Shown here: one piece after another, positions 34,873 through 39,752 of the stretch
Layout: every line of letters starts with the position of its first letter
Numbering within the stretch: position 1 is the first letter of the stretch
NCBI GenBank assembly: GCA_020073185.1
Contig: JAIQFT010000008.1
Span: 62,001-126,000, forward strand
Origin: Terriglobia bacterium
GTDB lineage: Bacteria; Acidobacteriota; Terriglobia; Terriglobales; Acidobacteriaceae
Reading direction: 5' to 3'
DNA: 64,000 bases
Notes under the pieces: generated by a model
Database searches by the model: none
What the model was told of the DNA's origin: nothing
What the model saw: the letters and a program-made list of their open reading frames with translations, nothing else
Translations under genes and position numbers: made by a program

Positions 34873-35775
34873 ATGTCCACGACTTTGGTCCAGATCGAAG
34901 TAGCGCGGCGCCGGCCGGGGCCCAAGCCGGAGTGGCTAAAGGCGCGCGCGCCCATTGGGGAGAACTATCACTCGCTGAAAAAGCTGGCGCGCGGGCTGGA
35001 ACTGCACACCGTGTGCGAGTCCGCGCAATGTCCCAACATCGGCGAGTGCTGGAACCATCGCACGGCAACCTTCATGCTGCTGGGCAATCTCTGCACTCGG
35101 CGCTGCGGATTCTGCGCCGTGCCCAAGGGACATCCGCGGCCGATCGATTACGACGAGCCGCGGCGCGTCGCGGAAGCGGTGGCGCGCCTGGAGCTGAAGT
35201 ACGCGGTGGTGACCAGCGTCAACCGCGACGACGACAACCTGGGCGGCGCGCGCGTGTTCGCCATGACCATCGAGGAGATCCGCCGGGTGGCGCCCGACTG
35301 CCGCGTCGAAGTGCTCATCCCCGACTTCCAGGGACACGACGACTGCCTGGAGGTCGTGCTCGCCGCCCGGCCCGACATCCTCAATCACAACACCGAGACG
35401 GTGCCGCGGCTGTACCGCGTGGCGCGATCCGGAGCGCGCTACGAGCGCACCTTGCGCCTGCTGCAGCGCGCGAAAGAAACCGCGCCGCAGACGGTGAGTA
35501 AATCAGGGCTGATGGTCGGACTGGGCGAAACCACCGAAGAACTGCTGCAGGTGTTTCGCGATCTTGCCGAACGAAACGTGGACATTCTCACCGTGGGGCA
35601 GTACCTGCGGCCCTCGCGCGACCACCTGCCGATGGCGCGTCTGGCGCCGCCGGAGGAATTCCGTTTCCTGAAGCAAGAGGCGCTGAAGATGGGATTCCGG
35701 CATGTGGAGAGCGGGCCGCTGGTGCGGTCGTCGTATCACGCGCACGAGCAGGCGGAGTCCACGGGGATCTCGTAA
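34873..35775 (+). CDS. lipA: Lipoyl synthase
   Basis: 300 residues. The auxiliary-cluster motif CESAQCPNIGEC and the radical-SAM motif CTRRCGFC are both present, plus the C-terminal GPLVRSSYHA. LipA inserts sulfurs into octanoyl-lipoyl domains. The ATG at 34873 gives the usual N-terminus. A partner lipB is not in the window. Confidence 0.96.
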   Translation: MSTTLVQIEVARRRPGPKPEWLKARAPIGENYHSLKKLARGLELHTVCESAQCPNIGECWNHRTATFMLLGNLCTRRCGFCAVPKGHPRPIDYDEPRRVAEAVARLELKYAVVTSVNRDDDNLGGARVFAMTIEEIRRVAPDCRVEVLIPDFQGHDDCLEVVLAARPDILNHNTETVPRLYRVARSGARYERTLRLLQRAKETAPQTVSKSGLMVGLGETTEELLQVFRDLAERNVDILTVGQYLRPSRDHLPMARLAPPEEFRFLKQEALKMGFRHVESGPLVRSSYHAHEQAESTGIS

Positions 35776-35843
35776 GCCTTCGCCGCCGTCAGAAAACTCT
35801 GCTAAGATGGCGGAAATCCAAAGTTGGAATTGAATCGAAGCAC

Positions 35844-36785
35844 ATGGGAATCGCGACGCGCACCTTGGTTTCGTCGCACCGACCGAACCTCTTTGCCGAG
35901 GACGCTCACTACAAACTTTTCCAGGATGATGCTTTTGAGTGGCTCGCGGCCGCCCAACCCAATTCCATCCACGCTGTCGTAACCGATCCTCCTTACGGCC
36001 TTGTCGAATACACATCCCGTGAGTTGAACAAGATGAAAAACGGCAAGGGTGGAGTCTGGCGGATCCCACCGTCTTTCGACGGATGCCAGCGGCGTCCCTT
36101 ACCACGGTTCACGGTATTAAAGCAGGGGGACCATCAAGCTCTGAGAAAGTTTTTTACGCGATTGGCATCCTCATTGATGCGGGTTCTGGTGCCGGGCGGA
36201 CACGTGTTTATTGCCACCAACCCCTTGGTTTCATATCTCGTATACGAACCGTTTGTGGCGGCGGGATTCGAAAAACGGGGCGAGATCATTCGCGTCGTAC
36301 ACACCTTGCGCGGCGGAGACCGTCCCAAGAATGCCCACAGCGAATTCCCAGATGTTTCAGTCATGCCGAAGTCATGCTGGGAGCCGTGGGGATTGTTCCG
36401 GAAGCCGTGCCAAGGGCGCGTACAAGATAATCTGCGCAAGTGGAAGACCGGAGGTCTGCGGCGAATTTCGGCGGAAGAACCATTCAAGGACCTCATCTAT
36501 TCGTCCCCTGCTCGAGGAGTTGAGCGTGAAATCGCTCCGCATCCATCTTTGAAGCCGCAGGGTTTTTTGCGCCAGATTGTGCGAGCGGCGTTGCCGATGG
36601 AACAAGGGACGATATTGGACCCGTTCATGGGATCGGGGTCAACCATTGCTGCTGCCGCGGCATGCGGTTATTCCAGCATTGGAATTGAAAGCAACCCCGA
36701 ATACTTTCTGCTCGCCGTCAAGGCCATTCCACTCCTGGCCAAATTTGAGCCCGGCGAGTGTAACGGCAATGGCAAGAAAGCGTGA
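35844..36785 (+). CDS. Site-specific DNA methyltransferase (beta class)
   Basis: 313 residues. Catalytic motif IV reads TDPPYG (about residue 50) and AdoMet motif I reads DPFMGSGST near the C-terminus, the beta-class order. DPPY favours N6-adenine methylation. The insertion around 60-110 is probably target recognition. No restriction enzyme of a known family is adjacent. G+C is lower than in lipA. It is the first gene of a plus-strand island that continues with a small ORF, an NTase-like gene and DUF262. The stop overlaps a GTG of the next small frame. Confidence 0.87.
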   Translation: MGIATRTLVSSHRPNLFAEDAHYKLFQDDAFEWLAAAQPNSIHAVVTDPPYGLVEYTSRELNKMKNGKGGVWRIPPSFDGCQRRPLPRFTVLKQGDHQALRKFFTRLASSLMRVLVPGGHVFIATNPLVSYLVYEPFVAAGFEKRGEIIRVVHTLRGGDRPKNAHSEFPDVSVMPKSCWEPWGLFRKPCQGRVQDNLRKWKTGGLRRISAEEPFKDLIYSSPARGVEREIAPHPSLKPQGFLRQIVRAALPMEQGTILDPFMGSGSTIAAAAACGYSSIGIESNPEYFLLAVKAIPLLAKFEPGECNGNGKKA

Positions 36786-36895
36786 ACGAGAAGATTGGTT
36801 TGATGCAACAGTCAATCTCTCGACACGAAGAGAAAAGACCCCGTGTGTTTGCAGTTGCCTCTACTACAATTAGCGGTTTCCTCGCAACGATGTAG
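36782..36895 (+). CDS. Possible 37-residue coupled peptide
   Basis: A GTG at 36782 overlaps the methyltransferase stop as GTGA and opens 37 codons ending FAVASTTISGFLATM; the stop lies 15 bases before the next gene. Coupling is suggested by the overlap; it may also merely carry ribosomes to the next start. No family is recognised. Confidence 0.35.
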   Translation: MNEKIGLMQQSISRHEEKRPRVFAVASTTISGFLATM

Positions 36896-36910
36896 GGTTG
36901 ATGGAACGGC

Positions 36911-37498
36911 ATGCCGTATCCGACTAAGGATGAGTTCTCGAAGCTGCTTGATTCCAGAGACCATGGCACAATCGTCGAAGAATTCTTGATTGCCGGGCTG
37001 CCGTATGCCTTCAAGGATTCTCCGACTGATTACGATGCGTTGCGTTCGGCTATCGGGTCCGCGTTAGCCCTCGCTGTCGACACGATGACAGCAATCGGCA
37101 GCGGGCGCATTGGGTACAGTTTGAGTCCGGAAAAATATGGAGTTCCATTTTCTACGGAATCTGACCTTGATGTTGCGGTCGTCAGTGCCGAGCTGTTCGA
37201 CACGGCTTGGTTCGAGCTTCTGCGCCTCGGTCGAAAATATTTCAGTCTCGAAAAACAGGTTCAATCTTGGATTGCTGCCCACAGGGAAAACCACATCTTC
37301 TGGGGGTTTATGATTCCTGACCGTCTTCCGGGCGCGGTAAAGCTTTCACCAAATTGGTTTAGAACATTCAAGGGGCTCGCTAGAAATCCGACGCTGGCGG
37401 GTCGACCTGTGAATGGACGATTGTACAGGACGTGGGAGCATGTGAAGATTCAGCAACTCAACAGTTTGAGAAAAGTCCAACAAGCATTGCGTACTTGA
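36911..37498 (+). CDS. Minimal nucleotidyltransferase-like protein
   Basis: 195 residues. A GS followed by a 22-residue spacer and SDLDVAVV (about residues 56-90) is the pattern of the polymerase-beta-type nucleotidyltransferase active site (GS, then D-x-D). The rest contains aromatic-rich helices and no other family I recognise. Typical activities in this fold are transfer of NMP to protein or small molecules, and antitoxin or defence functions. It lies between a DNA methyltransferase and DUF262. G+C is about 53% in one counted line. The start ATG at 36911 has a weak ribosome site. Confidence 0.65.
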   Translation: MPYPTKDEFSKLLDSRDHGTIVEEFLIAGLPYAFKDSPTDYDALRSAIGSALALAVDTMTAIGSGRIGYSLSPEKYGVPFSTESDLDVAVVSAELFDTAWFELLRLGRKYFSLEKQVQSWIAAHRENHIFWGFMIPDRLPGAVKLSPNWFRTFKGLARNPTLAGRPVNGRLYRTWEHVKIQQLNSLRKVQQALRT

Positions 37499-37509
37499 TA
37501 GGAATGACT

Positions 37510-38589
37510 ATGGACTACAACTCCAGCGAGCAGACTATTGGGTGGTTCAAAGACCGCTATCTTGAAGGGAACTTGGAGATAAAGCCACCCTATCAAAGAA
37601 GGCCAGTGTGGGCAGCACGCCAGAAATCGAACCTTGCCGAATCCATTCTGCTGGGTCTTCCTGTGCCCGAAATATACATCCATTCCACTACAAGTGCCGA
37701 AGGTAAGACGCACTACGCAGTGGTCGACGGGCAGCAGCGTATCAGGTCGATTCTTCAGTTTGTGGGAATAGACGAGGAAGACAGCGAAAAGCAATTCAAC
37801 GGATTCGCGCTGGAGGGTCTCGAAGAAGATTCTTTGTGGCGCAATACTACCTTTGAAGACCTTACCCCCAAGCAACGAGAAAAGTTCTACGGCTACAAGC
37901 TTTCCGTACGTTTCTTGTCGGATGCATCCGAAGCTGATGTTAGGGACATGTTCAGACGATTGAACAAGTTTCTCACAAAACTCAGTGACCAGGAGTTGCG
38001 CAATGCTATTTACTCTGGCCCGTTTATCCAACTCTCCAACACGCTTGCTGACGACGATTACTGGGCGGAAAATCGAATCGTGTCCCCCGGGATAATTCGA
38101 CGGATGAAGGACATCGAGTTCATAAGCGAACTCTTGATTGGGTTGATGGACGGCCCACAAGGCGGGAGCGGCCAAATCATTGATGATTATTACCTGCAGA
38201 TGGAAGAGTATGAGGATGAGATTCCTGACCAGAAAACGGTTAAGCGCCTTCACGAGCGCACGCTGACTGCCGTTCAGGTCATTTTCCCGGATATCAAGAA
38301 GACTCGGTGGCGCAATCGGACCGATTTTTATTCCCTTTTCGTAGCACTTGGAGCCATTTTGAGTGGAGGGGCCAAGAAATATAAGCCTGAGGACGTCCGC
38401 AATGTTCTTTTGGAGTTTGCGGAACAAGTCAACGCGAGAATCTCTGACGAAGAGGCCGAGGTTTCGGATGGGGCAGCCGCCTACACCGAGGCCGTGAAAC
38501 GGGGCAGTTCTGATAAGTCACGCCGCGCAATCCGGCATCAGGCACTGTTAGGATTGTTGGCTCCGCTGTTCAGGAAGAAACAGAATTGA
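37510..38589 (+). CDS. DUF262 (GmrSD N-terminal-like) protein
   Basis: 359 residues from the ATG at 37510, with AGGA seven bases before; the ATG at 37504 sits too close to it. The DUF262/ParB-like signature is present: PPYQRRPVWAARQKSNL, PVPEIYIHS and VDGQQRIRSI. DUF262 proteins are related to the GmrSD nuclease, where the motif binds or hydrolyses nucleotide. No C-terminal DUF1524 HNH domain is seen; instead there is a helical C-terminus (about 240-359). It is coupled closely (11-base gap) to the NTase-like gene. G+C is about 50% in one counted line. Confidence 0.82.
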   Translation: MDYNSSEQTIGWFKDRYLEGNLEIKPPYQRRPVWAARQKSNLAESILLGLPVPEIYIHSTTSAEGKTHYAVVDGQQRIRSILQFVGIDEEDSEKQFNGFALEGLEEDSLWRNTTFEDLTPKQREKFYGYKLSVRFLSDASEADVRDMFRRLNKFLTKLSDQELRNAIYSGPFIQLSNTLADDDYWAENRIVSPGIIRRMKDIEFISELLIGLMDGPQGGSGQIIDDYYLQMEEYEDEIPDQKTVKRLHERTLTAVQVIFPDIKKTRWRNRTDFYSLFVALGAILSGGAKKYKPEDVRNVLLEFAEQVNARISDEEAEVSDGAAAYTEAVKRGSSDKSRRAIRHQALLGLLAPLFRKKQN

Positions 38590-38600
38590 GCTGGGTTCCC

Positions 38601-39752
38601 ATGAAAGATTTCTACGTCCGCGACGCCGCGCAGTTCGACAACAAAGTCATCACCACCAGCCTGGTGGTAGCCGCCAAGCAAGTGAAGCCGAAAAAAACCG
38701 GCGAGCCGTACCTGGCGCTCACCCTGGCCGATCGCACCGGGCACATTGACGCCAAGGTGTGGGACAACGTTGCCGAGATCATGGGGACGTTCGAGCAGGA
38801 CGACTTCGTCAAGGTGCGCGGCCTGATCAACAAGTACAACGGCCGCCTGCAATTGACCGTGCACAAGCTGAAGCGGCTGGAGGAGTCGGAGATCGATTAC
38901 TCCGACTATCTGCCCAAAACCACCAAGGACGTGGACGAGTTGTGGCGCACGCTGGGCGAGTTTGTGGCCGGATTCAAGAATCCGCACCTGAAGGCGCTGG
39001 TGGAAAATTTCATGAGCGATCCCGAGATCGCCGCCGCCTACCGCAATGCGCCCGCGGCCAAAACGCTGCATCACGCGTATATCGGCGGGCTGCTCGACCA
39101 CGTGGTGTCGCTGTGCAAGCTGTGCGACCTGGCCTGCCGCAACTACCCGCAGGTTGACCGCGACCTGCTATTGACGGGCGTGTTCCTGCACGACATCGGG
39201 AAGGTGCACGAGCTTTCGTACGCGCGCTCGTTCGCCTACACCACGCGCGGGCAACTGCTGGGGCACATGATTATCGAGCTGGAGATGCTGCAAGCCAAGC
39301 TGCCGGCGGATTTTCCGCCGCAACTCAAGACGCTGCTGGAGCACCTGATCATCAGCCATCACGGGCATTACGAGTTCGGCTCGCCCAAGCTGCCGATGTT
39401 TCCCGAAGCGCTCATGCTGCACTACCTCGACGACCTCGATTCCAAGATGGAGGCCATGCGCGCGCACTTTGAGCGCGAAGCGGAAGTGGACAGCCCGTGG
39501 ACAAGTTACAACCCTTCCCTGGCGCGTCCGCTGCTCGACACCGCGAAGTTCCTGCGTCCGAAGGCGGCGGCCGCTCCGCCGGAACCAGCCGCGGGTGAAA
39601 TGGCGGAACCGGAGGAACCGCCAAAACCGGCGGAGGAGCCGGCGGCGGCGGCGGTGGCGCCATCGTCCGAGACCGTCCCTCTGGAGAGGCAGGTCGAGGC
39701 ACTGCAAAACAAGTTCAAGCCTGCGGGTAACCATAAGGGAGAAGCGAAGTGA
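38601..39752 (+). CDS. yhaM: YhaM-type 3'-5' exoribonuclease (OB-HD)
   Basis: 383 residues. An N-terminal OB fold (about 15-90) precedes an HD domain with HH (LHHAYIGGLLDH) and HD (FLHDIGKVHEL). Bacillus YhaM shortens RNA 3' ends. The C-terminus is an Ala/Pro/Glu-rich tail (about 315-370) not usual for the family. It lies 11 bases after DUF262 on the same strand. Its stop overlaps the BlaI gene start as GTGA. Confidence 0.88.
   Translation: MKDFYVRDAAQFDNKVITTSLVVAAKQVKPKKTGEPYLALTLADRTGHIDAKVWDNVAEIMGTFEQDDFVKVRGLINKYNGRLQLTVHKLKRLEESEIDYSDYLPKTTKDVDELWRTLGEFVAGFKNPHLKALVENFMSDPEIAAAYRNAPAAKTLHHAYIGGLLDHVVSLCKLCDLACRNYPQVDRDLLLTGVFLHDIGKVHELSYARSFAYTTRGQLLGHMIIELEMLQAKLPADFPPQLKTLLEHLIISHHGHYEFGSPKLPMFPEALMLHYLDDLDSKMEAMRAHFEREAEVDSPWTSYNPSLARPLLDTAKFLRPKAAAAPPEPAAGEMAEPEEPPKPAEEPAAAAVAPSSETVPLERQVEALQNKFKPAGNHKGEAK

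Follow-up and report, generated by a model that had tools for sequence, protein, structure and literature searches.

The window (the whole 64,000-nucleotide stretch analysed here) is part of a 4.66-Mb draft genome, G000, which is probably that of an acidobacterium. Between lipA (34873-35775; TIGR00510 match, 3.8e-110) and a yhaM-like gene (38601-39752; PRK13480 match, 7.3e-62, below that model's cut-off) it carries an insert of ∼2.8 kb whose gene content is exactly three intact plus-strand genes. The features of this interval are as follows.

35775..38598, no strand: acquired insert in the lipA/yhaM interval, matched by an empty site in G112; low G+C
35844..36785, plus strand: beta-class DNA methyltransferase (PF01555, 1.9e-18; PADLOC MTase_II PDLC03215, 4.6e-121)
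36786..36910, no strand: spacer that holds most of an unsupported 37-codon ORF; site of a restriction enzyme gene in L019 and L022
36911..37498, plus strand: nucleotidyltransferase-like (NTase-like) protein of 195 aa, GSGRIGYS...SDLD, assigned from motif and model; proposed effector
37504..38589, plus strand: DUF262 (GmrSD_N, ParB-like NTPase) protein (PF03235, 3.1e-23); proposed sensor or switch

In G112, a genome of the same genus (locus L082), the lipA-yhaM gap is 158 bp and contains none of the three genes. Similarity between the window and G112 ends at 35774 and picks up again at 38599; the three genes were gained here, or lost in G112, as a single unit. Gain is favoured over loss in the relative because the G+C content of the insert is low (0.522 versus 0.622 for the whole window). 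The original prediction of a low-G+C plus-strand set between lipA and yhaM is thus borne out, both by base composition (52% versus 62% G+C) and by the profile matches of the flanks. The set had been taken to include the 37-codon ORF (36782-36895), which we reject as a component because it lies in the spacer and has no family match in Pfam, NCBIfam, PADLOC and further profile searches; the six frames of the 125-bp spacer likewise hold no recognisable gene remnant. Among ORFs of at least 70 aa at the compared loci, no further conserved neighbour was found other than a restriction endonuclease (REase).

The methyltransferase belongs to the beta class because its DPPY motif precedes the FxGxG motif, and N6-methyladenine is its predicted product from DPPY. 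This class assignment, made originally from the letters alone, is confirmed. The closest relative (72% identical) is paired with an REase, and type II restriction enzymes are the usual partners of the family. In all partner classes of the methyltransferase, conservation of the likely target-recognition stretch is no lower than that of the catalytic parts, which fits a common recognition site for the family. Two members (L019:5512-6660 and L022:5248-6474) carry an extra N-terminal stretch of ∼80 residues with a winged-helix look, HARE-HTH-like by eye and without confirmation from Pfam.

The NTase-like protein has no match above threshold in Pfam, NCBIfam or PADLOC, and its sole profile match is phrog_32008 (2.9e-18); NTP_transf_2 matches two of its relatives below threshold. 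The GS and SDxD motifs are invariant in 17 aligned sequences (invariant residues G63, S64, G68, S70, S84, D85, D87, W100, G132 and W149), and a third acidic residue is not invariant in this alignment. In the AlphaFold model (pLDDT 90.4, pTM 0.85), GS follows the strand 59-62 and DxD lies on the strand 86-91, the places expected for an NTase. The three best matches in the fold search are NTases, below significance. We therefore use the label 'NTase-like' for this candidate member of the Pol-beta nucleotidyltransferase superfamily, since the model is confident but its fold matches are not significant, and regard the assignment, which matches the GS-DxD nucleotidyltransferase-like protein first proposed, as resting on motif and model together.

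Two more specific identities were rejected. A CD-NTase of a CBASS system lacks profile support (no PADLOC match at E up to 1; CdnG fold match not significant), and the 345-position model of Menshen NsnB missed the NTase-like protein and found matches in all 14 control genomes. Collection scans with the single NTase protein gave zero matches, an alignment of five NTases contained no stretch conserved enough for scanning, and Foldseek comparison with viral models returned nothing significant. Relatives of the NTase-like or DUF262 protein were also not found in phage records and viral contigs. A phage origin was rejected on this ground, yet the phrog_32008 match points to a phage protein similar to the NTase.

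The DUF262 protein most likely starts at ATG 37504, 5 bp past the NTase stop and behind TAGGA, rather than at GTG 37432. It carries the motif VDGQQR, in which D-G-Q-Q-R is invariant in 16 sequences, and its C-terminal half is all-helical. As had been noted, DUF1524 is missing: profile searches found no match to it in the DUF262 protein or its neighbours. The protein matches Menshen NsnA at full length (4.2e-44 over 5-348) and PD-T4-2_A (4e-21 over 19-284), and its only significant fold matches are BrxU (3.4e-4) and SspE (9.1e-4). It is also matched by the PADLOC REase_II model PDLC03418 (1e-13), an indication that restriction-enzyme entries already include certain DUF262 proteins.

A scan for DUF262 relatives in one genome per species (84,980 species) yielded 20 loci. 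Once the window itself and L092, which came from a class sample, are counted in, the close group comprises 15 loci. Members of five phyla (Acidobacteriota, Planctomycetota, Actinomycetota, Nitrospirota and Pseudomonadota) have the trio, so the failure to recur together that would have spoken against a set did not occur. Together with the empty site in G112, this joint recurrence across phyla indicates that the grouping is more than chance. The NTase gene lies directly upstream of the DUF262 gene in 13 of the 15 loci; the exceptions are L025, where the NTase is gone and the DUF262 gene is 5'-truncated with its start lost, and L026, where the contig begins at DUF262. With a spacing of -14 to +21 bp (17 pairs with both ends settable), the two genes form an operon-like pair.

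A methyltransferase of the same family adjoins the pair in all 15 loci, against a chance expectation of ∼0.04% per locus. It lies upstream in three (the window, L019 and L022) and downstream in the others, on the same strand in six and on the opposite strand in six. By contrast, the seven distant NTase-DUF262 pairs (L003, L004, L030-L033 and L036) lack this methyltransferase family. One of these loci (L036:4856-10659) stacks a DUF262-HEPN pair, an NTase-DUF262 pair and a different beta-class methyltransferase.

The trees of the two proteins differ. The methyltransferase-linked DUF262 proteins form one clade (99/99, recovered in 98% of bootstrap trees) in a tree that holds 14 of the 15 group members, L092 having been found later and left out. 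Their partner methyltransferases occupy four separate supported places, interleaved with REase-paired enzymes: (i) a group of their own, L018, L020, L023, L025, L028 and L029 (95/94); (ii) the window enzyme with the REase-paired L053 (96/95); (iii) L019, L021 and L022 among enzymes paired with the REase family RE1 (100/99); and (iv) L024, L026, L027 and L034 with two RE1-paired ones (100/100). DUF262 sisters such as L018 and L022 (98/97), or the window and L026/L027 (95/90), have methyltransferases of different clades. The module has thus switched methyltransferase repeatedly. In this clade the pair has an obligate but exchangeable METHYLTRANSFERASE, taken each time from a single family. The dependence is one-sided, since only 3 of the 38 methyltransferase-bearing genomes in the class sample of 399 carry the pair (the window, G542 and a decayed copy in G623).

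Elsewhere (L053-L081 and L042-L045), relatives of the methyltransferase adjoin one of three REase-like families: RE1 (motif GHPDL...EGIEIKTT), RE2 (PDL...ALESKGS) and RE3 (a PADLOC REase_II match, 3e-141). The tested members of RE1 and RE2 have no Pfam match or a weak PADLOC match. RE1 and the methyltransferase alone make up small plasmid restriction-modification (R-M) units in Klebsiella, Gordonia, Rhizobium and Acidiphilium. At the 15 loci with the pair, the REase is intact in four, a fragment in two (L027 and L034) and missing from nine, and it is intact in 19-22 of the 27 loci without the pair; intact REases are thus rarer beside the pair (Fisher p 0.01 to 0.0008, with relatedness ignored). 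The gene order of the window is that of L019 and L022 minus the REase. The insert contains no cognate REase, and an REase of RE1 type, the one type searched for genome-wide, was not found elsewhere in the genome; location elsewhere in the genome is rejected for that type only.

The pair seems to make the REase dispensable. Linkage, exchange and REase loss together indicate a pair that relies on this methyltransferase family, swaps its members and usually occupies the place of the REase. The methyltransferase had been read as part of the set, and this holds as far as linkage is concerned; the family itself serves type II enzymes, whose REase the pair replaces or joins.

These observations bear on two alternative explanations. 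The NTase-DUF262 pair could be an independent module stored next to a type II R-M locus, with a functionally unlinked methyltransferase. Defence genes cluster in general, seven pairs exist without the methyltransferase family and four loci keep a whole R-M system beside the pair. We nevertheless consider such storage quite improbable, given that the same family stands at the boundary of the pair in 15 of 15 loci, that partners are exchanged only within it and that the window insert carries nothing besides the three genes. Alternatively, the DUF262 and NTase-like proteins could form a complex with nuclease activity on unmethylated sites, i.e. ordinary restriction in disguise, as the PDLC03418 match and the loss of most REases beside the pair might imply. 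This is very unlikely: profile and fold searches found a nuclease motif or fold in neither protein, and DUF1524, to which cutting is assigned in GmrSD, BrxU and SspE (PMC10952713), is absent from the window protein.

Outside the methyltransferase-linked clade, DUF262-only relatives have other enzyme partners. HEPN partners are above the Pfam cut-off in L051, L106 and L036, and about nine more partners show an RN-x-I-A-H-type motif only, a motif whose loose form occurs in 10-34% of shuffled sequences. RelA_SpoT synthetase partners are above cut-off in three loci and make a candidate alarmone-synthetase-type effector pair, and protein kinases accompany DUF262 on two plasmids.

L093:1489-3571, L096:1501-3567 and L105:138-2034: DUF262-only gene followed directly by RelA_SpoT (PF04607)
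L046:3998-6140 and L049:3992-6236: DUF262 with a protein kinase (in L049 as annotated), on plasmids of Asticcacaulis and Pseudanabaena

A constant DUF262 protein with changing, often toxic enzyme partners suggests a division of labour in which sensing falls to DUF262 and action to the partner. By analogy with these pairs, DUF262 is most likely the sensor and the NTase-like protein the effector at our locus. The original prediction had named a defence gated by the NTase as one possibility; partner swapping suggests the reverse, with DUF262 as the gate.

The NTase family has a second type of partner, a GT51 (PF00912) transglycosylase encoded upstream of it in five other loci.

L002:5337-6591, L013:8723-10403, L015:4105-5407, L016:7765-9217 and L017:7274-8742: transglycosylase-NTase units

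In L017 the unit is embedded in a type I R-M locus, flanked by its hsdM-like and hsdS-like genes. The unit on an Aliarcobacter plasmid (L002) has genes for DUF4365, phospholipase D-like and TIR-domain proteins as neighbours (L002:6648-12364), probably making up a small defence island.

The transglycosylase pairing is poorly explained by an effector role, and the NTase could instead control its harmful partners in the manner of a type VII toxin-antitoxin system. MntA, the antitoxin of such a system, attaches a nucleotide to HepT. A comparable reading would make DUF262 the harmful protein, quieted by nucleotide attachment from the first-encoded NTase, with the methyltransferase as a second safety or a passenger. 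The NTase gene indeed comes first in every pair, as does the MNT antitoxin, for which the gene-order argument was made previously (PMC3710099) in what is now classed as type VII (PMC11586414). The transglycosylase is also potentially harmful, and the kinase, possibly a modifier too, pairs with DUF262 on plasmids. We regard this reading as unlikely, since the HEPN and RelA-like partners are themselves toxin-type, which makes DUF262 the constant regulator, and since the dependence on the methyltransferase is left unexplained.

The combination has no name in the profile libraries searched, as was first supposed: only components match (NsnA and PD-T4-2_A). Papers that link DUF262, GmrSD or a transglycosylase to an NTase do not describe the set (in mainly open-access literature, so this is not proof of absence). 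The closest known systems combine a DUF262 protein with another enzyme: PD-T4-2 (DUF262 and HEPN) and Menshen (DUF262 and OLD nuclease) (PMC10952713). Both protect against phage (PMC10952713, PMC9519451), PD-T4-2 protecting E. coli against T4 (PMC9519451). Like the NTase-DUF262 pair, PD-T4-2 consists of two genes, one for a DUF262-only protein and one for its enzyme partner, but that partner is HEPN, to which the NTase-like protein has no match, and a methyltransferase is not reported. Menshen (NsnA/NsnB/NsnC) shares the DUF262-only protein NsnA, but its partners are the OLD nuclease NsnC and NsnB, neither of which is present in the insert, where the NTase has no PADLOC match.

Other systems share single parts of the set. 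GmrSD, BrxU and SspE have the DUF262 NTPase domain with DGQQR, but also the DUF1524 nuclease domain that the window protein lacks. Type II R-M systems use the same methyltransferase family (window match PDLC03215) with RE1, RE2 or RE3, whereas the insert has the NTase-DUF262 pair in place of a restriction endonuclease. Type VII HEPN-MNT units also encode a small GS/DxD NTase first of two genes, but their partner is HEPN rather than DUF262, and the window NTase has no Pfam NTase match. As for the link to a methyltransferase, the closest precedent is the HEPN (MAE_28990)-ParB-DNA methylase operons noted in a HEPN survey (PMC3710099), which have the same three-part logic of a methylase, a ParB/DUF262-type protein and a toxin-type enzyme, with HEPN in place of the NTase, and are known from gene neighbourhoods alone. 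In brief, the proposed sensor occurs in known DUF262 systems too, and the combination itself is undescribed in the libraries and papers found.

The best explanation is that the trio is a mobile, methylation-coupled defence unit with an NTase effector, a reading that we hold tentatively, at somewhat less than an even chance. Its linkage and mobility are observed: the three genes form one insert, the pair clade always stands beside one methyltransferase family and the REase is usually missing or broken. Its function would involve three steps: (i) the methyltransferase would mark its site in the host genome, with N6-methyladenine as the probable product, and the early suggestion that methylation could mark self fits the linkage data; (ii) the DUF262 protein, as a ParB/GmrS-type NTP-driven switch, would inspect DNA and change state where the mark is absent; and (iii) it would release or activate its operon partner, and the NTase would attach nucleotides to some component of the cell (perhaps tRNA), so that the invaded cell is arrested and the DNA left uncut. 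The MenT NTase toxins, which extend tRNAs (PMC10435456), are the model for this target.

Besides the transglycosylase pairing, several observations count against this defence reading: the seven distant pairs without the methyltransferase imply that the pair can exist in its absence, four loci keep an intact REase, and the NTase assignment lacks a significant fold match and an invariant third acidic residue. The DUF262 proteins of BrxU, GmrSD and SspE, moreover, respond to modified and not to unmodified DNA. A methylated host site might then arm DUF262, after which DUF262 and the NTase would act on invading DNA or the cell. SspE, a DUF262 protein with a fold match to that of the window, works only with the phosphorothioate mark of its own host (PMC10952713), BrxU and GmrSD read modified DNA and a methyltransferase of one family is obligate. 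We find this Ssp-like logic quite unlikely, because REase loss in most loci better fits a replaced restriction of unmarked DNA.

The defence reading has a more specific form, possible though doubtful, in which the trio would be an R-M system with a non-nuclease restriction half: DUF262 would sense unmethylated DNA and the NTase would shut the cell down, and the pair would plug into many methyltransferases of one specificity, displacing their REases. If the defence reading is true, a DUF262 switch would connect classical DNA self-marking with an abortive effector that is not a nuclease, which would link restriction-modification with toxin-type defence. One rule would then cover DUF262-only systems (Menshen, PD-T4-2 and the HEPN, RelA-like, kinase and NTase pairs), namely a constant DUF262 DNA sensor with interchangeable effectors, and type II methyltransferases regarded as 'orphans' would merit a second look where they neighbour such pairs.
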